Positions 5,001 through 64,000 of a DNA stretch of 64,000 nt are shown piece by piece. The notes beneath the pieces are model-generated. The model saw nothing but the letters and a program-made list of their open reading frames with translations, was not told the DNA's origin and did no database searches. The number at the start of each line of letters is the position of its first letter. The first letter of the stretch is position 1. The DNA comes from Comamonas sp. (GTDB taxonomy: Bacteria; Pseudomonadota; Gammaproteobacteria; Burkholderiales; Burkholderiaceae_C): assembly GCA_031277805.1 (NCBI GenBank), contig JAITLR010000017.1, positions 1 to 64,000 of the forward strand. Direction: 5' to 3'. A program made the translations under genes and the position numbers.

Positions 5001-7439
5001 ATGAACAACCTCCGCGAACCTATTGCTCCCGCCGTCGAAGCACAGTCGGCTGAAGCCTTTGCCCATTACCTGAAGAACACGGCCTCCCGCATCGATGTGA
5101 AGACCGAAGCTCATGCCCTGCAGAGCGGTGCCCGCGTAGGCATCAGCCGTGCCCATGAATCGGCGCACCTGCATGTGGCCGGCGAGGCCGCCTATATCGA
5201 CGACCTGCCCGAACTCGATGGCACGCTGCACTGCGCGCTGGGCCTGTCGCCCATCGCCCACGGCCGCCTGATGGCGCTGGCATTGGAGTCCGTGCGCGCC
5301 ATGCCTGATGTGGTGGACGTGATCACGGGGGCCGACATTCCCGGCGTCAACGACTGCGGCTCCATCATCCACGACGATCCCATCCTGTGCGATGGAGAGA
5401 TCCGCTACGTGGGCCAGCCCCTGTTTGCCGTGATTGCCCGCAACCGCGACGCCGCGCGCCGTGCGGCTGCCCTGGCCAAGAGCGTGGCCACAATCACCGA
5501 AGCCGCGCCTGTGCTGACGCCGCAGAAGGCGCACGAGCTGGGGCAGTACGTGCTGCCCCCCATGCACCTGGAGCGCAGCACCAACGAAGGTGGCGCACGT
5601 GCGGCCATCGACAAGGCGCCGCACCGACTCAAGAGCACCTTCGATCTGGGCGGCCAGGAGCAGTTCTATCTGGAAGGCCAGATCAGCTACGCCATTCCCA
5701 AGGAAGATGGTGCGGTGCATGTGCACTGCTCCACCCAGCACCCCAGCGAAATGCAGCATCTGGTGGCCCATGCCCTGGGCGTGCATTCGCATATGGTGCA
5801 TGTGGAATGCCGCCGCATGGGCGGTGGCTTTGGCGGCAAGGAGTCGCAGTCGGCCCTGTTTGCCTGCGTGGCTTCCGTGGCCGCCATACGCCTGCGCCGT
5901 CCCGTGAAGCTGCGCCTGGACCGTGACGACGATTTCATGATCACGGGCCGTCGCCACTGCTTCTGGTTTGAATACGAAGTGGGTTACGACGACGACGGCC
6001 GCATCCTGGGTGCGGAGATTTCCATGGTCTCGCGTGCCGGCCATTCGGCCGACCTGTCGGCGCCGGTGATGACGCGTGCGCTGTGCCATTTCGACAATGC
6101 CTATTGGCTGCCCGATGTGTCCATGCATGGCTACTGCGGCAAGACCAACACGCAGAGCAATACGGCCTTCCGCGGCTTCGGCGGTCCCCAGGGCGCGATT
6201 GCCATTGAAAACATCATCGAAACGATTGCACGTAGTCTGGGCCGCGATGCGCTCGATGTGCGCCGCGTGAACTTCTACGGCACGGACGCCAACAACGTCA
6301 CCCCCTACAGGCAGACGGTGGTGGACAATGTGATCCACGATCTCGTCGGTCAACTGGAGGCCAGCAGCGACTACCGTGCACGCCGCGAGGCCGTGAATGC
6401 CTTCAATGCACAGAGCACCGTGCTCAAGCGCGGGCTGGCTCTCACACCCATCAAGTTCGGCATCAGCTTCAACGTCAAGCATTTCAACCAGGCCGGCGCG
6501 CTGGTGCATATCTACACCGATGGCTCCATGCTGGTGAACCATGGCGGCACCGAAATGGGTCAGGGCCTGAACACCAAGGTGGCTCAGGTGGTGGCTCACG
6601 AACTGGGCGTGAGTTTCGGGCGCGTGCGTGCCACGGCCACCGATACCACCAAGGTGGCGAATACCTCGGCCACGGCTGCCTCCACGGGCGCCGACCTCAA
6701 CGGCAAGGCGGCGCAGGATGCGGCACGCCAGATTCGCGAGCGTCTGGCGGTGTGCGCTGCCAACCGCTACGGTGGCAAGGCCGAAGACGTGCGTTTCGGC
6801 AATGACCTGGTGCAGGTCAATGGCCAGTCCATCCCCTTCGAGAAGCTGGTCGGCGAAGCCTATCTCGACCGCGTGCAGCTCTGGTCCGACGGCTTCTATG
6901 CCACGCCCGGCCTGTCCTGGGACAAGGACAAGATGCAGGGCCGTCCGTTCTATTACTTTGCTTATGGTGCAGCCGTGAGCGAGGTGGTGATCGATACGCT
7001 GACTGGCGAGTGGAAGCTGCTGCGCGCCGATGTGCTGCACGATGCTGGCAAATCGCTGAATCCGGCTGTGGATATTGGTCAGGTCGAGGGAGCCTTCATC
7101 CAGGGCATGGGCTGGTTGACCACCGAGGAACTGGTCTGGCATCCGCAAAGCGGCAAGCTCACCACCCACGCACCCAGCACCTACAAGATCCCCACGGCCA
7201 ACGATTGCCCGCCCGTGTTCAACGTACAACTGTTCGAAGGCCAGAACTTTGAGGACTCCATCCACCGCAGCAAGGCTGTGGGTGAACCCCCGCTGCTGTT
7301 GCCGTTCTCGGTGTTCTTTGCCATTCGCGATGCGGTGGCATCCGTGGGTAGCTCAAGCTGCAATCCGCCGCTGCGTGCGCCAGCGACGCCCGAGGCAATC
7401 TTGCGTGCCGTAGAAGCCGTGCAGGCTGGCCAGGCCTGA
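5001..7439 (+). CDS. xdhB: Xanthine dehydrogenase molybdopterin-binding large subunit
   Basis: Catalytic molybdenum-cofactor subunit (812 residues) of xanthine dehydrogenase, partner of the XdhA encoded just upstream. Typical molybdoflavoenzyme motifs are visible: GGGFGGKE (about residue 274), TAFRGFGGPQG (about 390), HGGTEMGQGLNTK (about 515) and the C-terminal KAVGEPPLLL, which carries the catalytic glutamate of the family. GGAG precedes the ATG at 5001. The usual third gene xdhC (Moco sulfuration/insertion chaperone) is not downstream; a purine permease takes that place, so XdhC must be encoded elsewhere. Confidence 0.96.
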   Translation: MNNLREPIAPAVEAQSAEAFAHYLKNTASRIDVKTEAHALQSGARVGISRAHESAHLHVAGEAAYIDDLPELDGTLHCALGLSPIAHGRLMALALESVRAMPDVVDVITGADIPGVNDCGSIIHDDPILCDGEIRYVGQPLFAVIARNRDAARRAAALAKSVATITEAAPVLTPQKAHELGQYVLPPMHLERSTNEGGARAAIDKAPHRLKSTFDLGGQEQFYLEGQISYAIPKEDGAVHVHCSTQHPSEMQHLVAHALGVHSHMVHVECRRMGGGFGGKESQSALFACVASVAAIRLRRPVKLRLDRDDDFMITGRRHCFWFEYEVGYDDDGRILGAEISMVSRAGHSADLSAPVMTRALCHFDNAYWLPDVSMHGYCGKTNTQSNTAFRGFGGPQGAIAIENIIETIARSLGRDALDVRRVNFYGTDANNVTPYRQTVVDNVIHDLVGQLEASSDYRARREAVNAFNAQSTVLKRGLALTPIKFGISFNVKHFNQAGALVHIYTDGSMLVNHGGTEMGQGLNTKVAQVVAHELGVSFGRVRATATDTTKVANTSATAASTGADLNGKAAQDAARQIRERLAVCAANRYGGKAEDVRFGNDLVQVNGQSIPFEKLVGEAYLDRVQLWSDGFYATPGLSWDKDKMQGRPFYYFAYGAAVSEVVIDTLTGEWKLLRADVLHDAGKSLNPAVDIGQVEGAFIQGMGWLTTEELVWHPQSGKLTTHAPSTYKIPTANDCPPVFNVQLFEGQNFEDSIHRSKAVGEPPLLLPFSVFFAIRDAVASVGSSSCNPPLRAPATPEAILRAVEAVQAGQA

Positions 7440-7613: not shown

Positions 7614-8912
7614 ATGAACTGGACCGAACGGGTGTTCAAGCTCAATGAGCACGGCACCAATATAAAAACCGAGCTGATTGCCGGCTTGACAACCTTCCTG
7701 ACGATGGCCTACATCATCTTCGTCAATCCCTCGATTCTGGGGGATGCGGGGATGCCCAAGGGATCCGTTTTCGTGGCCACCTGCCTGATTGCGGCACTGG
7801 GCACGACCATCATGGCGCTGTACGCGAACTATCCGATCGCGCTGGCTCCGGGCATGGGTCTCAATGCCTACTTCGCCTACGGCGTGGTGCTGCACATGGG
7901 CTTCACCTGGCAGGCCGCATTGGGTGCCGTGTTTGTTTCCGGCTGTCTGTTCCTCATCGTGACGCTGTTTGGCTTGCGGGAGTTGATCATCAAGGGCATA
8001 CCGCAGTCCATACGGATTTCGATCACCGTGGGTATCGGCCTGTTCCTGGCACTGATCGCGCTCAAGAGCGCCGGCATCGTGGCCAAGTCGGACGCGACCT
8101 TCGTGACGCTGGGCGACCTGCACACGCCTCAGGTGGTGATGGCTTCGCTGGGCTTTTTGCTTATCGTGGTGCTGGATCGCCTCAAGGTTCCCGGTGCCAT
8201 CCTGATCGGCATTGTGTCGGTGACCATCGCTTCGTTCTTCTTCGGTGGCAATGAGTTCAAGGGCATTTTCTCGGCGCCTCCATCAATCGAGCCGACGTTC
8301 CTGCATCTGGACATCAAGGGGGCGCTGACGGGCGGTATCCTCAATGTGGTGCTGGTGTTCTTCCTGGTTGAACTGTTCGACGCCACCGGTACGCTGATGG
8401 GCGTGGCCAAGCGCGCCGGTCTGCTGGTGCCGGGCCGCATGGAGCGACTGAACAAGTCGCTGCTGGCCGACTCGGGCGCCATCTTTGCCGGTTCGCTGCT
8501 GGGTACATCGAGCACCACGGCCTACGTGGAAAGCGCTGCTGGCGTGCAAGCGGGTGGTCGTACCGGTCTGACGGCTCTGACTGTGGCCGTGCTGTTCCTG
8601 GGTTGCTTGTTCCTGGCGCCTCTGGCGGGTGTCGTGCCTGCCTACGCCACGGCTCCGGCGCTGTTCTTCGTGGCTTGCCTGATGCTCAGGGAGCTGACCG
8701 AGATCGAGTGGGATGAAACCACCGAGGCCGTACCTGCTGCGGTGACGGCACTGCTGATGCCCTTCACCTATTCGGTGGCCAACGGCCTGGCATTCGGTTT
8801 CATCACCTACGCCGTGCTCAAGCTGTTCACCGGCAAGAGCAAGGAAGTGCACTGGATGGTGTGGCTGATTGGTGGCGTGTTCCTCTTCAAGTTCATCTAC
8901 ATCGGCGGATAA
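7614..8912 (+). CDS. NCS2 purine permease, AzgA type (guanine/hypoxanthine)
   Basis: Predicted inner-membrane purine:proton symporter of 432 residues with about 12-14 membrane segments. The N-terminal signature KTELIAGLTTFLTMAYIIFVNPSIL and the APGMGLNAYFAY motif are typical of the AzgA branch (E. coli GhxP/GhxQ/AdeP relatives). The longer open frame begins at 7518, but the ATG at 7614 (MNWTERVFKLNEHGTNIKTE) is preceded by GGAG and matches the family start. Its position 174 bases after xdhB suggests it supplies hypoxanthine or xanthine to the dehydrogenase. Exact substrate is an inference. Confidence 0.93.
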   Translation: MNWTERVFKLNEHGTNIKTELIAGLTTFLTMAYIIFVNPSILGDAGMPKGSVFVATCLIAALGTTIMALYANYPIALAPGMGLNAYFAYGVVLHMGFTWQAALGAVFVSGCLFLIVTLFGLRELIIKGIPQSIRISITVGIGLFLALIALKSAGIVAKSDATFVTLGDLHTPQVVMASLGFLLIVVLDRLKVPGAILIGIVSVTIASFFFGGNEFKGIFSAPPSIEPTFLHLDIKGALTGGILNVVLVFFLVELFDATGTLMGVAKRAGLLVPGRMERLNKSLLADSGAIFAGSLLGTSSTTAYVESAAGVQAGGRTGLTALTVAVLFLGCLFLAPLAGVVPAYATAPALFFVACLMLRELTEIEWDETTEAVPAAVTALLMPFTYSVANGLAFGFITYAVLKLFTGKSKEVHWMVWLIGGVFLFKFIYIGG

Positions 8913-9028: not shown

Positions 9029-11503
9029 TTATCCAGTGGTAGCCGGCAGCATGGTCTGACCGGCCCATTGCCTGGCAGGCTGCGGACGGCTGAATACATA
9101 GCCCTGCTGCAGCACGCAGCCCATGCTGCGCAGCAGGGCCGATTGTTCCCGGGTCTCAACACCTTCGGTGATCACGCTGAGGTCCAGATCGGTGGCCATG
9201 GAGATGATGGCGCGCACGATCTTCTGGTCTTGTGCATTGGTGGTGAGGTTGCGCACGAAGCTGCGGTCGATCTTGATGATGTGGACTTGGTAGTGCGACA
9301 GATAGCTCATGGAGGAGTAGCCGGTGCCGAAGTCGTCAATGGCGATGCGCACGCCCTGGCCGCGCAGCTGGGTCAAGGTCTCGGCCGCCAGCTGTTCATC
9401 GCCCAGCAGCATGTCCTCGGTCACCTCAAGTACCAGGCGGTTTGCGGGCATGCCCAGGCTGGCAAGTGTCTTGGCCAGCTGCATGGGAAATTCGCCACTG
9501 TAGATATCGCTGACTGACACGTTCACGGCCAGGTAGGGGTGAGCGGGGCTGTCCAGGTGTGGCAGAAAGTCTATGCAGGCCTTGCGCAGCACGCATTGGG
9601 TGAGAGCGCCTATATGGCCGGATTCGGTGGCGACGCGGATGAACTCGGGCGGCGGTATGGCTCCGAGCTCGGGGTGCTGCCAGCGTGCCAGCGCCTCGAA
9701 ACCCGCGATGCAGTCGCTGGCGGTATTCATGATGGGCTGGAAGTACACCTCGATTTCGCCGCGCGCGATGGCATCGGGCAGGCTGGCTTCGATCTGGAAC
9801 TGGCGCGTGGTACGGACATGGATGCGGCAGTCAAAGGCAACGACTTCTGTTCGGCGGCTGCGCTTGGCTTCGTACATGGCCGTTTCGGCCTCGCGCAGCA
9901 GTTGCTCGGGATCCAGCGCATTCAGCGGTGCGGAGCTCATGCCGAAGGCTGCTGCGACGGGAATGCGTTGGCCGTTGATGGTGAAGGGCGTGCTGAACAA
10001 GGCTTCGCAGCGCGAGCGTAGATGCTCGAGCGCAGGTTCGCCGCAGAAATGAGAGACGATGACGAAGGAGTCACCGCCAAAGCGCACCAGCGCCTCCCGT
10101 TCCACGCGCCAGTGCCGCAGGCGCTCGGCCATGGCCGCCACAATGGCGTCGCCGAAGGCGTGGCCATAGGTGTCGTTGATGAGTTTGAAACGGTTCAGAC
10201 CCAGCATCACCAGCGCCACATGCTCCTGGTCGCTGGTGGCATTGCGGGCGGCCTGCAGCAGCAGCGGGGGCAGGCCGTGGCGGTTGGGCAGGCTTGTGAG
10301 GTCGTCGTGAGTAGCCTGATAGTGCAGGGCGCGCTGGCGCTCGGCCAGCACACGGCTGCGTATGACCAGGATGGCCACACTGGCCAGCAGCAGGGCCACG
10401 ACCAGCGAAAAGCCGATCAGCGGCTGGCGGTATTTGGAGTCGAAGATCGAGGCAGGCTCATTGAGCAGCGTGCTGCCTTCGGGCAGGTTACGGGCGCTCA
10501 CGCCCAGCCGGTGCAGTTCCTGATAGTCAAACAGCAGGGCCAGCGGTGTCTCGCGCACATAGGGAATCTGTGAAGGGGCCTGACCGGCCAATATCCGTTG
10601 CGCCATGGCGGCCTGCAGCCGGCCGGTTTCCAGCCCGCTGTTCATGTAGCCGCCCACAATGCCGTGGCCAACCGAGGTGTCCAGGTCGGAATACACGGGT
10701 AGCCCGGTGCGGGCGTGCACAAAAGCCGTCACTTCCTCGGGCTCCAGCGGCGGCTGGCCTAGCAATGCGGGAATCGAGCCCAGCACGAAGATCAGCGTGT
10801 CCCGGTGCTGGTGCTGCAAGCGCTCACCGATGCGCGAAAGATCGGGTGCGACCCAGTGCTCGACCTGCGGGCCAGGCGGCAGCAGCGCGAGGGTGGTATC
10901 CACTCCGTTGCGCAGCTCGATGCCGGTCTCATCCTGCGGCGTGATGAAGATCAGGCGCCGGGTTCCCGAATGCAGGGACAGGGCGATGCGCAGCGTGCGT
11001 GTCAGGTCGAAGCGCTCGAGAATGCCAGTGACCTTGGGGCGCTCACCGACGATCTGGGCTGGATCGCCGTTGATGCCGCTGAATACCACGGGCGTATTGC
11101 CGAAGAGAGCGCTTTGCCGGGCTACGAATTCGAGCGCGTTGTCATCGACCGTGGCGATCAGATCGAAGCGCTGGTGTGCATATTTGTCGGTCAGGTAGCG
11201 GGCCAGCCGCTGACGTTGTTCCAGCCCCGGGTAGCGCTTGGTGTCCATCCATTCGGTATGGAATACCGGCTTGGCAGCCCCTTCTCCCCCCCACTCATTG
11301 AGGCCGGCCAGAATTCGATCCTCCCAGCTGTGACCAGGGTGGTAGGACATCAGTACCAGCACCTGCGGACGCGCTGTCTGCGCACCTGGCTCGGCTCGGC
11401 TTGCAGACGCGCAAGCGCTCAGCATGCAGACTGAAACCCAGGCTGTGGCGCGGATCAAGCCACGAAGACGCCAGGCATGCAGGTGGATGAAGGTGCGGGG
11501 CAT
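9029..11503 (-). CDS. Membrane GGDEF-EAL protein with periplasmic ABC-type sensor domain
   Basis: Predicted c-di-GMP phosphodiesterase of 824 residues. Order: signal/lipoprotein-like N-terminus (VCMLSACAS), a periplasmic domain resembling ABC-transporter substrate-binding sensors (about 45-350, starting PQVLVLMSYHPGHSWED), one transmembrane helix (about 359-381), a GGDEF domain (about 405-565) and an EAL domain (about 575-820). The GGDEF signature is changed to GGDSF (about 476), so cyclase activity is probably lost. The EAL domain keeps FEALARW, LEVTED, DDFGTGYSS, KIDRSF, EGVE and QGY, so hydrolysis of c-di-GMP to pGpG is likely. It stands alone. The ligand sensed is unknown. Confidence 0.9.
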   Translation of the reverse strand: MPRTFIHLHAWRLRGLIRATAWVSVCMLSACASASRAEPGAQTARPQVLVLMSYHPGHSWEDRILAGLNEWGGEGAAKPVFHTEWMDTKRYPGLEQRQRLARYLTDKYAHQRFDLIATVDDNALEFVARQSALFGNTPVVFSGINGDPAQIVGERPKVTGILERFDLTRTLRIALSLHSGTRRLIFITPQDETGIELRNGVDTTLALLPPGPQVEHWVAPDLSRIGERLQHQHRDTLIFVLGSIPALLGQPPLEPEEVTAFVHARTGLPVYSDLDTSVGHGIVGGYMNSGLETGRLQAAMAQRILAGQAPSQIPYVRETPLALLFDYQELHRLGVSARNLPEGSTLLNEPASIFDSKYRQPLIGFSLVVALLLASVAILVIRSRVLAERQRALHYQATHDDLTSLPNRHGLPPLLLQAARNATSDQEHVALVMLGLNRFKLINDTYGHAFGDAIVAAMAERLRHWRVEREALVRFGGDSFVIVSHFCGEPALEHLRSRCEALFSTPFTINGQRIPVAAAFGMSSAPLNALDPEQLLREAETAMYEAKRSRRTEVVAFDCRIHVRTTRQFQIEASLPDAIARGEIEVYFQPIMNTASDCIAGFEALARWQHPELGAIPPPEFIRVATESGHIGALTQCVLRKACIDFLPHLDSPAHPYLAVNVSVSDIYSGEFPMQLAKTLASLGMPANRLVLEVTEDMLLGDEQLAAETLTQLRGQGVRIAIDDFGTGYSSMSYLSHYQVHIIKIDRSFVRNLTTNAQDQKIVRAIISMATDLDLSVITEGVETREQSALLRSMGCVLQQGYVFSRPQPARQWAGQTMLPATTG

Positions 11504-58352: not shown

Positions 58353-58370
58353 GCCTGGAAAGCGCTTGGC

Positions 58371-58403
58371 GGAAAAGGCCACCCTTGCGGTGGCCTTTTC
58401 CAT
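58371..58403 (+). terminator. Intrinsic terminator after the aldehyde dehydrogenase gene
   Basis: Perfect 13-bp stem GGAAAAGGCCACC / GGTGGCCTTTTCC (58371-58383, 58389-58401) around CTTGC, 19 bases after the stop codon. Confidence 0.92.
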
Positions 58404-58446
58404 TGGAGGGTGTATGTCGTTTGGCTTATGAGAGGCCTTTGGTAAG

Positions 58447-58469
58447 CGTTATTCCAAAAATGAATAGCG
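58447..58469. promoter_or_regulatory. ModE-like inverted repeat upstream of the TonB-receptor operon
   Basis: CGTTATTC (58447-58454) and GAATAGCG (58462-58469) form an imperfect dyad of 23 bases. The outer half-sites CGTTAT / ATAGCG(AT) match the half-sites of ModE molybdate-repressor boxes (CGYTAT...ATARCG, about 24 bases). It lies 53 bases before the receptor start, directly ahead of a possible -10 TAGAAT (58475-58480). It supports Mo/W control of the downstream genes, but is a by-eye match only. Confidence 0.5.
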
Positions 58470-58521
58470 ATGGCTAGAATCGACGGTTTTTTACATCCGA
58501 CAACAATTACCCGCCCACGCC

Positions 58522-60576
58522 ATGCCACTGCACTCCACGGTTTTCCAGGTCCATCCTCCGAGTTTTGTTCTTCGCCGCAGCTGGCTGTGGGGTGCTCTGG
58601 CCATCGTGCCCATGGGGGCCGCCTGGGCCCAGACGGCCCCGGTGACCGCAGCCGAAACGCCCAGTCAGACCTTCACGCTGGGAACGGTGGAGGTCAGCAC
58701 GCGCCGCGATGCCGAAGAGCTTGGGGCCGGCGACATGCAACGCGTTGGCAGCGCCGAGATGGAGCGGACCAATGCCAATACCGTGGCTGATGCCGTGCGC
58801 AATCTTCCCGGTGTGAGCCTGTCGCGCAACAACCGCAACGAGGAGATGATCAGTCTGCGCGGCTTCGACTCGCGCCAGGTACCCATTTATGTGGATGGCG
58901 TACCGTTGTATGTGCCTTATGACGGCTATGTGGATCTGGGCCGCTTCACCACCTTCGATCTGGCCGAGATCAACGTGGCCAAGGCAGGTGCTTCGCTGCT
59001 GTATGGTCCCAATACGCTGGGCGGCGCCGTCAATCTGGTCACGCGCAAGCCAGTCAAGCCGTTCGAGGGCGATGTGCGTCTCGGTGTGGGCAGTGGCGGC
59101 GAGCGCAAGGCCGGCTTCAACCTGGGCGGCAACCAGGGCAACTGGTACTACCAGCTGGGCGCTTCCTACCTGGATGCCGACAGCTTTCCTCTGCCCCGGG
59201 GCTTCAGGGACTACAAAAAACAGCCCACCGATACCGGCAGCAATCGCGAGAACGCGGACCGCACCGACAAGCGCCTGTCCTTCAAACTGGGACTCACGCC
59301 CAATGCCACGGATGAATACGCCATCGGCTATGTACGCCAGGAAGGCGAGAAGGGCAATCCCGTCTACACCGGTCAGTCCACGCAGAAGAATGCCGTGCGT
59401 TACTGGCGCTGGCCCTACTGGGACAAGGACAGCCTGTATTTCCTGAGCACGACGCGCCTGAACAGCAGCAATGTGCTCAAGACCCGCCTGTACCACGACA
59501 CCTACAAAAACGGTCTCGACATGTACAAGGATGCCAGCTACACGGCCCACGATCCGACCAGCAGCTACAAGGACGTGAGCAAGGGCGCCAGCCTGGAGTG
59601 GGTCAACTACGCCCTATCCGGTCACGAGCTGCATGCGGCCTTCCACTACAAGCAGGACGAACACACCGACGCCGCCTCGGGCAAGGACCCGCAAAAGCAC
59701 TACCGCGATGTGACCACTTCGCTGGTACTAGAGGACCATATCACCCTGGCCGAACGCTGGCACCTGACGCTGAGTCTGAGCCATGACCAGCGCGACGCCA
59801 AGGAGGTCTACCAGTGGCCCACGGGCTCCACCAGTGCCACCAACGGCTTGGCGCGCCTGAGCTATGCACTCACGGCCCAGGGCGACGAGGTCTATCTGAT
59901 CGCCTCGCACAAGACCCGCTTTCCGACCATCAAGGACCGCTATTCGGCGCGCATGGGCACGGCCCTGGCCAACCCCGATCTCAAGCCCGAGGTGGCCAAC
60001 CATCTGGAGCTTGGCCTGAGCGGCAAGCCATGGCAGGGCGGCAAGGGGCAGGCGGCCGTGTTCTACAGCCGGGTGCGCGACCAGATCCAGACCATGGTCG
60101 TGGACTCCACGGCCTGCGGCGGCAAGACCTGCAACCAGGCACAGAACGTGGGACGCACGCGCAATATCGGTTTTGAACTATCGCTGGCGCAGCAACTCTC
60201 GGCCCAATGGGCTGTGCATGCGGGCTACACCTATCTGAGCCGCACCAATCTCAGCGATCGCAGCGTCACCTTGACGGACACGCCACGCCAGCGCCTGACG
60301 GCTGCCCTGCAATGGAATCCGCAGGCCCAGTGGCAGCTGCGCGCCGAGCTGGAGGCCGAGCAGGGCCGCAAGGTGCCGCTGTCGGCCAGCGGCCAGGCCC
60401 AGGTCTACCAGATGGCCGGCTATGGCGTGGTCAATCTGCGCGCCCGCTATCTGCCGCGCCCGGACACCACGCTGGACTTCGGTGTGACCAATCTGGGCGA
60501 CAAGTGGTACCAGATGGCCGACGGTCTGCCCATGCCGGGCCGCAGCTGGTATATGAACCTGGGTTACCGATTCTGA
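58522..60576 (+). CDS. TonB-dependent outer-membrane receptor (putative molybdate/tungstate-complex receptor)
   Basis: 684-residue outer-membrane protein. Signal peptide about 1-36 (cleaved after AWA). Plug domain about 50-170 with VADAVRNLPGVSLSRNN, ISLRGFDSRQVPIYVDGVPLY and GASLLYGPNTLGGAVNLVTRKP. The 22-strand barrel ends in YMNLGYRF with terminal Phe. A loop cysteine pair (ACGGKTC, about 533-539) is notable. The next gene starts inside its stop codon (TGATG), so the receptor is coupled to a TupA-like protein. The Mo/W substrate is inferred from the operon; siderophore or cobalamin remain alternatives. Confidence 0.88.
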   Translation: MPLHSTVFQVHPPSFVLRRSWLWGALAIVPMGAAWAQTAPVTAAETPSQTFTLGTVEVSTRRDAEELGAGDMQRVGSAEMERTNANTVADAVRNLPGVSLSRNNRNEEMISLRGFDSRQVPIYVDGVPLYVPYDGYVDLGRFTTFDLAEINVAKAGASLLYGPNTLGGAVNLVTRKPVKPFEGDVRLGVGSGGERKAGFNLGGNQGNWYYQLGASYLDADSFPLPRGFRDYKKQPTDTGSNRENADRTDKRLSFKLGLTPNATDEYAIGYVRQEGEKGNPVYTGQSTQKNAVRYWRWPYWDKDSLYFLSTTRLNSSNVLKTRLYHDTYKNGLDMYKDASYTAHDPTSSYKDVSKGASLEWVNYALSGHELHAAFHYKQDEHTDAASGKDPQKHYRDVTTSLVLEDHITLAERWHLTLSLSHDQRDAKEVYQWPTGSTSATNGLARLSYALTAQGDEVYLIASHKTRFPTIKDRYSARMGTALANPDLKPEVANHLELGLSGKPWQGGKGQAAVFYSRVRDQIQTMVVDSTACGGKTCNQAQNVGRTRNIGFELSLAQQLSAQWAVHAGYTYLSRTNLSDRSVTLTDTPRQRLTAALQWNPQAQWQLRAELEAEQGRKVPLSASGQAQVYQMAGYGVVNLRARYLPRPDTTLDFGVTNLGDKWYQMADGLPMPGRSWYMNLGYRF

Positions 60577-61472
60577 TGGCCATGGAAAACCTGTTCCAGA
60601 TACCGCTGGCGCGCCGTGAATGGCTGCAAGCCCTGGCCGCTCTGGGCCTGGCCGGAGGTCCGGCCCTGGCGGCCGAGCCCAAGTCGGCTTCGGGCACCGG
60701 CGTGCAGGTGGCGGCCGTGGGCGGGCTGGTGCTGTGCGGCGTATGGCCGCGCGTGGCCGAACAGGCTAGCCAGGCCATGGCCATGCCGGTCACCACCGTG
60801 GCGGCCGCACCCAAGGAGGGTGTAGTGCCCGCCTTCGCGCGCGGCGAGGCGCAGATGCTGCTGATCCACGCCAGCGACGAAGCCATGGCGCTGGAGGCCA
60901 GCGGCATGGCATCCGCCGCGCGTGTCTGGGGCTGGAACGAGCATGTGATTGCCGGCCCTGCCCAGGACCCTGCTGGCGTGCGTACGGCCGCTGACGGCAC
61001 GCAGGCGCTGCGGCGCATTGCCGAAACCGGCTCGCCCTTTATCGCGCTGCGCGACCCCGGCAGCTATACCGTGGTGCAGCGCCTGTGGCGGCGCGGCGGC
61101 GTACGCCCCGATGCGCGCTGGCTGCGCGCCGACACCGGCCCGCGCCCGCAGGCCGTGCTGGAGCTGGCGGCGCGGGAGCAGGCCTATGCCGTGGTTGGCC
61201 ATATCCCGCTGGCCTTCGGCAAGATGGGCGCCCCCGGCATAGAGCTGCTGCTGCATGGCGATCCGCTGATGCGCCGCCCCTATGTGCTGCTCACGCCTGG
61301 CCCGCGCCATCTGGCCACGGTAGCACAGCGCCGGGCGGTCAGTCAGCTGGCCGACTATCTGCTCTCGGACGCCGGGCAACAGATACTCAGGAATGCCAAC
61401 GGCAGCGACGGCACCTGGGTGTTTGCGCGCGACAGCGTGCCTGCGGGCATGAGCGCTGGCGCTGCTGGCTAG
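60576..61472 (+). CDS. TupA-like (tungstate/molybdate) periplasmic binding protein
   Basis: 298-residue exported protein with a twin-arginine-like signal (LARREWLQALAALGLAGGPALAA, about 11-33). The middle, GEAQMLLIHASDEAMALEASG, WNEHVIAGPAQDPAGVR, GSPFIALRDPGSYTVVQRLW and LLLHGDPLMRRPYVLLTPGP, follows the pattern of tungstate-binding TupA, but the S-G-T-H phosphate/oxyanion loop of typical TupA is altered to DPGSYT. No TupB/TupC genes follow. Its ATG overlaps the receptor stop. It may be a sensor or a periplasmic carrier working with the FecCD-type transporter downstream. Confidence 0.75.
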   Translation: MAMENLFQIPLARREWLQALAALGLAGGPALAAEPKSASGTGVQVAAVGGLVLCGVWPRVAEQASQAMAMPVTTVAAAPKEGVVPAFARGEAQMLLIHASDEAMALEASGMASAARVWGWNEHVIAGPAQDPAGVRTAADGTQALRRIAETGSPFIALRDPGSYTVVQRLWRRGGVRPDARWLRADTGPRPQAVLELAAREQAYAVVGHIPLAFGKMGAPGIELLLHGDPLMRRPYVLLTPGPRHLATVAQRRAVSQLADYLLSDAGQQILRNANGSDGTWVFARDSVPAGMSAGAAG

Positions 61473-61491
61473 AGATCGTCAAAGGACCTGT

Positions 61492-62043
61492 ATGAGCACC
61501 AACTCCAATGTGCCGCCACTGGCGGCGCTGATCTACCCTGATGACCAGCACGATATCGAGGCCTTGCTGGAGAGTGTGGCGCGGCGGTTGCAGCAATCGG
61601 GCCGGAATGTGGGCGGGCTGGTGCATCACCAAAGCCACTATGCCAATGGCAACAAGTGCATGCGTCTGCTGGATCTGCGCAGCGGCCGGCAGTTCGAGAT
61701 GACCGAGGACCTGGGGGGCCGCTCAAAGGCCTGTAGCCTGAACCCGCAGGCCCTGGCCCAGGCCAGTGTGGTGCTGCGCCAGGCCTTGGCCGATGGTGTG
61801 GAGCTGGCCGTGGTCAATTGCTTTGGCCAGCTGGAAGCGGCGGGTGGCGGCTTTGTCCAGGAAATCGCGGGCCTGATTGGGGCCGACATTCCCGTCATTA
61901 CCGCTGTGGCTGCCCGGCATGAGGCCGGCTGGCAGGCGTTTACGGGCGGAGACTTTGTCAGCCTGCCGGTGGATGAAGAAGCCGTGCTGCGCTGGTGCTT
62001 GCTGCAGTTGCAAACGCAGGGCACGGAAGGCTTGCCATGCTGA
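61492..62043 (+). CDS. DUF2478 protein (Mo-associated nucleotide-binding-like)
   Basis: 183-residue soluble protein. ALIYPDDQHDIEALLESVARRLQQSGRNVGGLVHH and the conserved DLRSGRQFEMTEDLGGRSKACSLNPQALAQAS fit DUF2478, a family I recall as encoded next to molybdate transport genes; biochemical role unknown. AAGGA precedes the ATG. Its end overlaps the next gene by 7 bases. The single-copy cysteines (KACSL, VNCFGQ) could bind metal. Confidence 0.78.
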   Translation: MSTNSNVPPLAALIYPDDQHDIEALLESVARRLQQSGRNVGGLVHHQSHYANGNKCMRLLDLRSGRQFEMTEDLGGRSKACSLNPQALAQASVVLRQALADGVELAVVNCFGQLEAAGGGFVQEIAGLIGADIPVITAVAARHEAGWQAFTGGDFVSLPVDEEAVLRWCLLQLQTQGTEGLPC

Positions 62044-63089
62044 CACGTCGCCAATGGCTGCATGGAGGCGCAGCGGTGCTGGCTTCAAGCCTGTACCAGG
62101 GGACGTTATGGGCGCAGGACGGTCGCTCCGTCATCGCTGCTCGATTCGGCTCGCTGCCTGCAAGGCCGGGCCGCGTGTTCGCCTCGGGGCCGCCGGCCGG
62201 CGTGCTGCTGGCGGCGCTGGCGCCGCAGCAGCTGCTGGGCTGGCCCATGCAATTGAGCGACGCAGCGCGCGCCTACCTGGGGCCGCAGCTGCAGGCCCTG
62301 CCCTATCTGGGTCGCCTGTCGGGCCGTGGCAGCACGCTGCCGTTAGAGAAGCTGCTGGCGCTGCAGCCCGATCTGGTGCTGGACTCCGGCACTTCCGATG
62401 CCACCCATGTCTCTGCCGCCGAGCGTCTGGCGCGCCAGACGGGTCTGGCCTGTGTGCTGGTGCAGGGCAGCCTGCCCGAACATGCGCGCCAGCTGCGCGA
62501 GGTCGGTAGCTTGCTGGGTGTGACCGAGCGTGGCGAGACCCTGGCCCGCTATGCCGACGAAGCCGCCAGGCTGGTGCGCTCCGTGACCGCAGGGCTGGGG
62601 GAGCAGGCCAGGCCGCGTGTCTATCTGGGGCGCGGCGCCAACGGCCTGGAAACCGGGCTGGCCGATTCCATCAATGTCGAGGTGATCGACTATGCGGGCG
62701 GCCGCAATGTGGCGGCCCAGGCCGGCAGGGGCGGACTCACGCGCGTCTCCATGGAGCAGATCCTGGCCTGGGACCCCGAAGTCATCCTGACCCAGGAAGC
62801 CGGTTTCGCCGAGCGCGTGCGCCAGGACCCCTTGTGGCGCGGCGTCAGCGCCGTGCGCAGCGGCCGTGTGCACTGCGCGCCCGTGCTGCCCTTCGGCTGG
62901 CTGGACGGCCCGCCCAGCGTGAACCGGCTGATCGGCGTGCGCTGGCTGCTCGAAAAGCTGCATCCGGGCCGCCTCGCCCGGCAGGACGCAAAGCCCCTGG
63001 AGCAGGCAGTGCGCGAGTTCTATGCGCTGTTCTATGGTGCCCAGCTGTCACCGGTGCAATTGCGAGCGCTGCTGGAAGCCGCACGTTGA
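62037..63089 (+). CDS. BtuF/MolA-like periplasmic binding protein
   Basis: 350-residue class III periplasmic binding protein for a type II (FecCD/BtuC-like) ABC importer. It has a twin-arginine-type signal (MLTRRQWLHGGAAVLASSLYQGTLWA). Two lobes are joined by a long helix (about 155-180); QPDLVLDSGTSDATHV, WDPEVILTQEAGF and PFGWLDGPPSVNRLIGVRWLLEKLHP are conserved features. The last motif is shared with the branch containing Haemophilus MolA (molybdate/tungstate). The ATG overlaps the DUF2478 stop by 7 bases. Confidence 0.85.
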   Translation: MLTRRQWLHGGAAVLASSLYQGTLWAQDGRSVIAARFGSLPARPGRVFASGPPAGVLLAALAPQQLLGWPMQLSDAARAYLGPQLQALPYLGRLSGRGSTLPLEKLLALQPDLVLDSGTSDATHVSAAERLARQTGLACVLVQGSLPEHARQLREVGSLLGVTERGETLARYADEAARLVRSVTAGLGEQARPRVYLGRGANGLETGLADSINVEVIDYAGGRNVAAQAGRGGLTRVSMEQILAWDPEVILTQEAGFAERVRQDPLWRGVSAVRSGRVHCAPVLPFGWLDGPPSVNRLIGVRWLLEKLHPGRLARQDAKPLEQAVREFYALFYGAQLSPVQLRALLEAAR

Positions 63090-63104
63090 AGGCATGGTGC
63101 CTGC

Positions 63105-64000
63105 ATGAAGTCCTTTGATTCCGGACCAGACGCTGCTTCGGGTGCGGATGCCAGCCAGTGCCGCCGGCGCGGTCGGGTGCGCCGGAACCTGGGTTGGTGG
63201 ACGGCCCTGGTCTTGCTGGTTCTGGTACTGCTGTGGGCGCTGGGCTCGGGCCAGTTTGCGCTCGCGCCGGCACAGCTGGCCGAAGCATTGTGGGCGCGTG
63301 CCACGGGGGTGGCGTCGCCGCTGCCGCCAGCGGCCGAAACCGTGCTCTGGAACATCAGGCTGCCGCGCATCGCAGCCGGCATGGCGGTCGGTGCGATGCT
63401 GGCTGCTGCAGGCGCGTCCTACCAGGGCATGTTTCGCAATCCGCTGGTCTCGCCCGACATCCTGGGTGTTTCGGCCGGTGCCGGCCTGGGGGCCGTCGTC
63501 GCCATCTATCTGGGCCTGTCGATGTTTGCCGTGCAGTGGCTGGCCTTTGGTGGCGGGCTGGTCGCTGTGGCCGTTGTGGTGGCCATCAGCGCCTGCGTGC
63601 GCAGGCACGATCCGGTACTCGTGCTGGTGCTGGCCGGCATCGCTTTGGGGGCCTTGCTGGGTGCCGGCATTGCCCTGATCAAGACCCTGGCCGACCCGAA
63701 CACCCAGCTGCCGTCCATCACCTTCTGGCTCATGGGGGGGCTGTCGGCCGTGACGCTGCAGGAAGTGGCCGCCACGGCGCCCGTGATGCTGGCGGTCCTG
63801 CTGCCCTTGCTGCTGCTGCGCTGGCGCATCAATCTGCTGGCTCTGCCCGATGAGGAAGCGCGGGCTCTGGGCGTGCCGGTCGGGCGGCTGCGCCTGGTGC
63901 TGGTGGTTTGCGCCACCCTGGGCACGGCGGCGGCTGTGTCGCTGGCCGGCATCATCGGCTGGGTCGGGTTGGTGGTGCCGCATGTGGCACGCCTGCTGGT
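63105..64000 (+). CDS. FecCD/BtuC-type ABC transporter permease (3' end outside window)
   Basis: At least 298 residues are visible and the frame is still open at the right edge. Helices begin at about residue 30 (LGWWTALVLLVLVLLWALG). Family motifs are NIRLPRIAAGMAVGAMLAAAGASYQGMFRNPLVSPDILGVSAGAG (about 88-132), FWLMGGLSAVT and GIIGWVGLVVPHVARLL. It begins 15 bases after the MolA-like gene and would form the membrane channel for it; a cytoplasmic ATPase gene is expected just beyond the window. Confidence 0.93.
   Translation, partial: MKSFDSGPDAASGADASQCRRRGRVRRNLGWWTALVLLVLVLLWALGSGQFALAPAQLAEALWARATGVASPLPPAAETVLWNIRLPRIAAGMAVGAMLAAAGASYQGMFRNPLVSPDILGVSAGAGLGAVVAIYLGLSMFAVQWLAFGGGLVAVAVVVAISACVRRHDPVLVLVLAGIALGALLGAGIALIKTLADPNTQLPSITFWLMGGLSAVTLQEVAATAPVMLAVLLPLLLLRWRINLLALPDEEARALGVPVGRLRLVLVVCATLGTAAAVSLAGIIGWVGLVVPHVARLL

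Follow-up and report, generated by a model that had tools for sequence, protein, structure and literature searches.

A candidate ModE-controlled, TonB-dependent molybdenum uptake operon in Comamonas and the relatives of its receptor

At the right-hand end of the first 64,000 bases (1–64000, hereafter the window) of a 417-kb contig (C7) from Comamonas sp. (assembly GCA_031277805.1; 4.16 Mb, 31 contigs, 86% complete) lies an operon that encodes, in this order, a TonB-dependent receptor (TBDR), a TupA-like protein, a DUF2478 protein, a class III periplasmic binding protein, a FecCD-type permease and an ATP-binding cassette (ABC) ATPase, and that is preceded by a ModE-type dyad. Judged from sequence, the operon is likely (with a probability of about 0.8) to serve the uptake of molybdenum, and possibly of tungsten too, under the control of ModE and with energy supplied by TonB. 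That it serves molybdenum or tungsten uptake at all can be said with slightly more assurance, and we lean, less firmly, towards an imported species that is complexed rather than a free oxyanion.

The ModE-type box in the genome and in receptor relatives

The dyad reads CGTTAT-N11-ATAGCG and corresponds in its core to the ModE consensus of the E. coli type (atCGnTATATA-N6-TATATAnCGat, as printed in PMC545781), the TATA stretches further in being partly lost. A first-pass annotation, made from the window alone, had proposed a ModE-like dyad ahead of the receptor, and this was borne out: nowhere else in the 64 kb does the pattern CGYTAT-N10..13-ATARCG occur with one mismatch or fewer. The pattern follows the E. 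coli consensus and was drawn up when six loci were already known; two of these (L020 and L021) recur among the relatives described below as L031 and L033. Across the assembly the exact box stands in two places, ahead of the operon and at the modE-modA junction, and the two copies are nearly identical (CGYTATTCCAnnAATGAATAGCG). The junction box is the single match in the 16-kb modE-modABC region, and because the modA frame, as called, has its first ATG within this box, the true modA start probably lies later. The ModE gene of this genome (C4:548889-549161) encodes HTH_1 and TOBE domains and scores 92.6 bits against TIGR00637, under the cut-off of 98.5. It is divergent from modABC, which is followed by fdhD (G000:C4:548406-552028, equivalent to L019:7407-11029).

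Relatives were gathered by a receptor-only search, which gave 157 loci, of which 80 were kept. Because YWRWPYW and P[LQ]YVPYDG, two motifs of the receptor, were used to find them, the conservation of these motifs is partly a matter of selection; likewise, the six seed receptors came from genomes picked for DUF2478, and the DUF2478 count is therefore seeded, whereas the counts of box, ModE and ModABC are not. In the upstream stretches scanned (500 nt plus 60, or 560 nt, per relative) the box was present with at most one mismatch at 53 of the 80 loci and exactly at 36, against dinucleotide-shuffle expectations of 0.68 and 0.02 loci, respectively. When receptors are clustered at 80% identity, the box with at most one mismatch occurs in 31 of 52 clusters, and at 70% in 18 of 33. 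Thirty siderophore TBDR loci of the same genus served as controls, and their 700-nt upstream stretches held no exact box (0/30) and a single one-mismatch box (1/30). Within the genus, DUF2478 scored over its cut-off in 17 of 53 genomes, and in 11 of the 17 an exact box lies 2.9–3.2 kb upstream of it, that is, ahead of the receptor gene; of the six genomes without an exact box there, one (G133, the same as L033) has a one-mismatch box. The first-pass suggestion of looking for the same operon behind ModE boxes in other genomes was thus productive. A pattern search of 299 Pseudomonadota genomes for a single receptor motif gave four, which is too narrow a search to describe the distribution. A chance dyad is rejected on the position of the box in the assembly, its recurrence in relatives and the control receptors.

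A second molybdenum-associated element came from an Rfam scan of 25 of the 80 loci, in which Moco-II RNA (RF01713) was found on the operon strand of L103 and L105, the two Desulfuromonadales loci. In L103 the RNA (8789-8832) is followed by a methyltransferase gene (9039-9872), the receptor, the binding protein, the permease, the ATPase and an FmdE gene; in L105 (RNA at 1138-1183) the order is methyltransferase, a second TBDR-like frame, the family receptor, the same ABC genes and FmdE. That second frame (L105:2058-4241), judged by eye, is different from the family receptor and directly precedes it in the same operon. The presence of two unrelated molybdenum-associated elements, the ModE box and Moco-II, on one receptor lineage is hard to explain except by molybdenum metabolism. 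Taking box, ModE gene, ModA plus ModB, and Moco-II RNA together (the last looked for in the 25 scanned loci), 69 of the 80 loci have at least one. Regulation by iron or cobalamin, which would have spoken for a different substrate, was not indicated: no cobalamin riboswitch turned up either in the region of the window operon (L002), where Rfam gave no match, or in the 25 relatives scanned, and Fur-like box matches in the relatives occurred at the shuffled level, with no enrichment.

The proteins of the operon

All five genes that the first-pass annotation had described as one tightly coupled unit lie where it placed them (Table 1): the TupA-like gene overlaps the receptor stop by 1 nt (at 60576), and the genes for DUF2478 and the class III binding protein overlap by 7 nt (62037-62043). 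The ATPase that had been expected to the right of the window is indeed the next gene after the permease.

Table 1. The ModE-type dyad and the genes of the operon, in window coordinates unless marked C7
Feature	Position	Strand	Remarks
ModE-type dyad CGTTATTCCAAAAATGAATAGCG	58447..58469	.	52 bp ahead of receptor start codon
TonB-dependent receptor (TBDR)	58522..60576	+	684 aa; plug and beta-barrel; PF07715 E=6.6e-23, PF00593 E=6.2e-36
TupA-homologous periplasmic binding protein	60576..61472	+	altered oxyanion site; optional operon member; PF13531 E=1.1e-5
DUF2478 protein	61492..62043	+	possible THEP1/NTPCR-like fold, P-loop not evident
MolA/BtuF-type (class III) periplasmic binding protein	62037..63089	+	PF01497 E=2.1e-22
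FecCD-type permease	63105..64000	+	extends 190 bp past the window to C7:64190; PF01032, full-length, E=5.9e-87
ABC ATPase	C7:64190-64957		overlaps FecCD end; outside the window; ABC_tran E=1.4e-31

The receptor belongs to a family with the plug domain in all 42 aligned members and the barrel in 41 of them, and its nearest named relatives are three records of Comamonas testosteroni, at 90–94% identity. It falls below the cut-offs of all 25 NCBIfam models listed among 31 matched, including the BtuB model TIGR01779 (115.5 bits, cut-off 599.7) and the TonB-dependent siderophore receptor model TIGR01783 (168.1 bits, cut-off 223.5). Among solved receptors, profile comparison places it closest to CirA (the colicin I receptor), PhuR (the haem receptor) and those for ferric enterobactin.

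The class III binding protein gives profile matches to 4pag (E=1.9e-80), to MolA (3psa, E=9.2e-27) and to BtuF (1n2z, E=1.5e-15), and it scores 97.1 bits against MolA versus at most 62.9 against BtuF; the MolA match spans positions 151-331 of the profile and ranks fourth, behind three binding proteins not named for a molybdenum ligand. The DUF2478 protein had no match among PDB sequences.

The TupA-like protein (298 aa) matches the TupA structures 3lr1 (E=1.4e-17) and 5my5 (E=1.2e-14). The oxyanion site of TupA includes a TTTS motif together with R118, T124 and D170 (PMC5517513). In the operon protein TTTS is replaced by AVGG and D170 by G208, while H59 of TupA is kept as H98 and, if a two-residue gap is allowed, R118 and T124 are probably kept as R159 and S163. 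Furthermore, the operon contains no TupB-type permease, FecCD being its only permease. Of the first-pass description as a TupA-like oxyanion binder, the homology stands; a canonical tungstate binder of the TupA kind is rejected on the loss of TTTS. For the same reason the broader claim that each of the last four proteins points to molybdenum or tungsten was too strong for the TupA-like protein, as it was for FecCD taken alone.

The operon is flanked upstream by an aldehyde dehydrogenase gene and downstream, after the ATPase, by a convergent sodium:solute (SSF) symporter gene. Elsewhere in the window, the frame at 5001-7439 is the large subunit of a xanthine dehydrogenase-type molybdoenzyme (domains MoCoBD_1, MoCoBD_2 and Ald_Xan_dh_C), so that of the XdhAB pair reported at first pass the large subunit is confirmed by its domains, the domain scan having covered that subunit alone.

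A working model and its competitors

When molybdenum is ample, molybdenum-loaded ModE would sit on the box at 58447 and repress the operon, in the manner of ModE at the modABC genes of E. coli; when it is scarce, repression would be lifted and the receptor made. Powered by TonB-ExbBD, the receptor would then import from outside a molybdenum species that is too large, or present at too low a level, to enter by porins. A chelate is the likeliest candidate, either a xeno-molybdophore or a natural organic molybdenum complex. The MolA/BtuF-like protein would receive this species in the periplasm, perhaps with the TupA-like protein as an optional helper, and the FecCD permease and ATPase would move it across the inner membrane, where it may be acted on inside the cell by DUF2478 and, in relatives, by a methyltransferase or an FmdE protein. 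Repression by ModE, the direction of transport, molybdenum as the substrate and its chelation are all things that we infer from the operon, its box, their conservation and the family homologies. A chelated substrate is plausible because a TBDR is costly, because the combination of TBDR and class III system is typical of chelate transport and because the TupA site is altered; such molybdenum complexes do exist, since Azotobacter vinelandii is reported to release molybdenum-binding compounds available for uptake (PMC3440940). Among the ten neighbour proteins that were domain-scanned there were no metallophore-synthesis genes, although no search aimed at them was made.

Several observations weigh against this model. 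Read backwards, the box pattern gives seven exact matches in the assembly, and in most of the genus genomes that carry DUF2478 the backwards pattern is about as frequent as the box or more frequent; exact matches are therefore not rare in themselves and prove little alone, and it is their place that is rare and that counts. Eleven of the 80 loci (L042, L047, L063, L074, L075, L076, L079, L080, L081, L098 and L107) have neither box, ModE gene, ModA plus ModB nor Moco-II. A consensus scan of 58353-58600 for promoters and terminators returned nothing, including no sigma-70-like promoter, and the genome already encodes ModABC. As for the chelate step, at some loci ModABC is present without a FecCD gene, and a class III system alone implies no chelate, since MolBC-A of H. 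influenzae is a low-affinity transporter that carries free molybdate (PMC4031551).

The last two points feed the strongest competing explanation, in which the receptor imports free molybdate or tungstate at trace levels, with no chelator, and TonB energy serves affinity only. Three loci in which the receptor is accompanied by ModABC, a carrier of the free oxyanion, and no FecCD gene (L084, L106 and L109) would fit, as would the H. influenzae relative of the binding protein, MolA, which binds molybdate and tungstate (PMC4031551). Molybdate, however, is described as crossing the outer membrane by porins (PMC8264917), the closest solved receptors are those for colicin I, haem and ferric enterobactin, and the TupA-like protein lacks the oxyanion motif, so that we regard uptake of the free oxyanion as unlikely, though to be taken seriously.

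The system might instead salvage pterin-bound molybdenum, that is, the molybdenum cofactor or a breakdown product, rather than a simple chelate. What speaks for salvage is found in the relatives: in 18 of the 80 loci the receptor has as its neighbour a small protein of the molybdopterin-binding oxidoreductase type (PF00174, a domain checked in L089 and L079), with a start that by eye is signal-peptide-like, and two loci have Moco-II RNA before the operon. Sixteen of the 18 form the second of the three layouts described below; here a cysteine is kept in 15 of 16 sequences (the L104 row was read in the wrong frame), and, in a post hoc count, a box lies upstream of a PF00174 gene that precedes the receptor, exactly in 4/16 and with one mismatch in 2/16. 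The window operon, on the other hand, has no PF00174 protein, and the MolA relative of its binding protein binds inorganic molybdate. Free molybdenum cofactor is, moreover, unstable. Cofactor salvage is, on balance, improbable.

A similarly slim chance is given to a system specific for tungsten, which would be under ModE because that regulator responds to both oxyanions. The TupA homologue in the operon is the reason to consider it, but the TupA site is altered, the TupA-like gene occurs in only 10 of the 80 loci, and the window carries the xanthine dehydrogenase-type molybdenum enzyme. Finally, an ordinary siderophore or cobalamin system standing by chance behind a ModE-like dyad would account for TBDR, BtuF-like and FecCD proteins, the usual parts of such systems, but is very improbable, being contradicted both by the regulatory signals (the box at 53 loci, its exact form in the assembly only here and at modE-modA, Moco-II at two loci, no cobalamin riboswitch where scanned and no Fur enrichment) and by a receptor below the TIGR01783 and TIGR01779 cut-offs.

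Variation among relatives, known systems and significance

The neighbourhoods of the 80 receptors vary, and it should be kept in mind that neighbour families were named by Pfam on representatives only, that ModE counts come from tblastn and may include TOBE-only proteins, and that some loci are clipped by contig ends. A ModE/TOBE gene is present in 36 loci, ModA plus ModB in 26, DUF2478 in 39, an S-adenosylmethionine (SAM) methyltransferase in 25 (e.g., L046:15276-16076), a di-haem oxidoreductase in 13, an SBP_bac_6 protein in 11 and an FmdE homologue in 3 (Pfam-confirmed in L108 only). In many loci the methyltransferase gene comes next after that for the ATPase, but in L103 and L105 it lies ahead of the receptor; its product may act on the imported ligand.

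Three layouts can be distinguished. In layout A (45 loci) a class III binding protein is encoded together with FecCD, mostly arranged as in the window operon; the count takes the two genes anywhere in the locus, so that it includes L074, where they are upstream of the receptor, and L055, where they are 8-10 kb downstream. Layout B (16 loci) has the PF00174 protein, usually ModE and often ModABC; examples are L058:9305, L060:9441, L084:11936 and L089:11826-12461, and PF00174 proteins also stand by the receptor in L055 and L108. Several loci of this layout have no box at the receptor and one before the PF00174 gene, which precedes the receptor mostly in Xanthomonadales. Layout C (13 loci) has an SBP_bac_6 protein and/or a di-haem oxidoreductase, the pair following the receptor in L088, L091, L092, L095, L098-L100 and L109, from Pandoraea, methanotrophs and others. 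Six loci fall outside these layouts, some owing to a contig end. In the Thermomonas locus L068, the flank away from the receptor carries a manganese riboswitch and a thiamine pyrophosphate (TPP) riboswitch (L068:404-579 and L068:1212-1307).

A wider reading, which we offer tentatively and to which we give somewhat less than even odds, is that the receptor family is an energised outer-membrane gate of Proteobacteria for an organic molybdenum complex, be it a dedicated or stolen molybdophore or shed pterin-bound molybdenum, with the ModE box and Moco-II as independent controls and with three interchangeable inner modules. These modules would be MolA/FecCD, often with DUF2478; a periplasmic protein that bears the pterin-binding domain, in many cases alongside ModE and ModABC; and a binding protein paired with a di-haem oxidoreductase.

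Parts of this system have known counterparts. With MolBC-A of H. influenzae (MolA HI1472, PDB 3psa/3psh) the operon shares the class III binding protein, FecCD-type permease and ABC ATPase, and molybdate-dependent repression of molB has been reported (PMC4031551); MolBC-A is, however, of low affinity, the available text on it mentions no outer-membrane receptor, and the TBDR, DUF2478, TupA-like protein and ModE box are features of the Comamonas operon. A precedent in print is an annotation of the mod region of Azotobacter chroococcum, where a TonB receptor "potentially for molybdate" and ABC genes stand beside modE/modG/modABC (Achr_39320-39290; PMC4465626); it is a single sentence, and the two cases are likened by description only. 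Similarity to TupABC ends with the homology of the 298-aa protein, as TTTS, the D170-equivalent aspartate and a TupB-type permease are missing. BtuB-BtuFCD and siderophore TBDR-FecCD systems have the same two-membrane architecture, but the Comamonas operon has molybdenum-linked elements rather than a B12 riboswitch or Fur box, and a receptor under their model cut-offs. Another route for molybdate across the outer membrane has been proposed in Pseudomonas aeruginosa, where it consists, unlike the TBDR operon, of a ModA secreted by the type VI secretion system and IcmP, an outer-membrane protein described as an insulin-cleaving metalloproteinase (PMC8602904). In Azotobacter vinelandii three TonB siderophore-receptor operons are reported to be switched on without molybdenum and vanadium, via VnfA1 and not ModE (PMC9542535). 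No direct evidence on TonB-dependent molybdenum uptake stands in the available text of PMC10781756, PMC11734730, PMC6147048 or PMC12905483, and within the open-licence literature no work that compares such receptors or tests their function was recognisable by title or abstract, PMC4465626 being the only source found, from the text available, to name a TonB receptor for molybdate; absence there does not amount to absence from print.

It is well supported that the operon is a new variant of TonB/ABC metal uptake. It is thus probable that some bacteria take molybdenum (or tungsten) across the outer membrane actively, by an energised gate and most likely as a bound species, as opposed to relying on diffusion. 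If so, many Proteobacteria would spend energy on scavenging molybdenum, which fits the reported molybdenum limitation of nitrogen assimilation (PMC3440940), and a conserved TBDR behind ModE boxes makes the molybdophore idea testable with a named receptor in strains kept in the laboratory, among them those of Comamonas testosteroni. DUF2478 and Moco-II RNA both gain a molybdenum-linked context; the Moco-II row of a table in PMC2864571 names no ligand, and its position ahead of methyltransferase-TBDR-MolABC-like operons is a possible lead to the function of this RNA. The finding also suggests that siderophore or B12 annotations given to members of this receptor family would have to be revisited.

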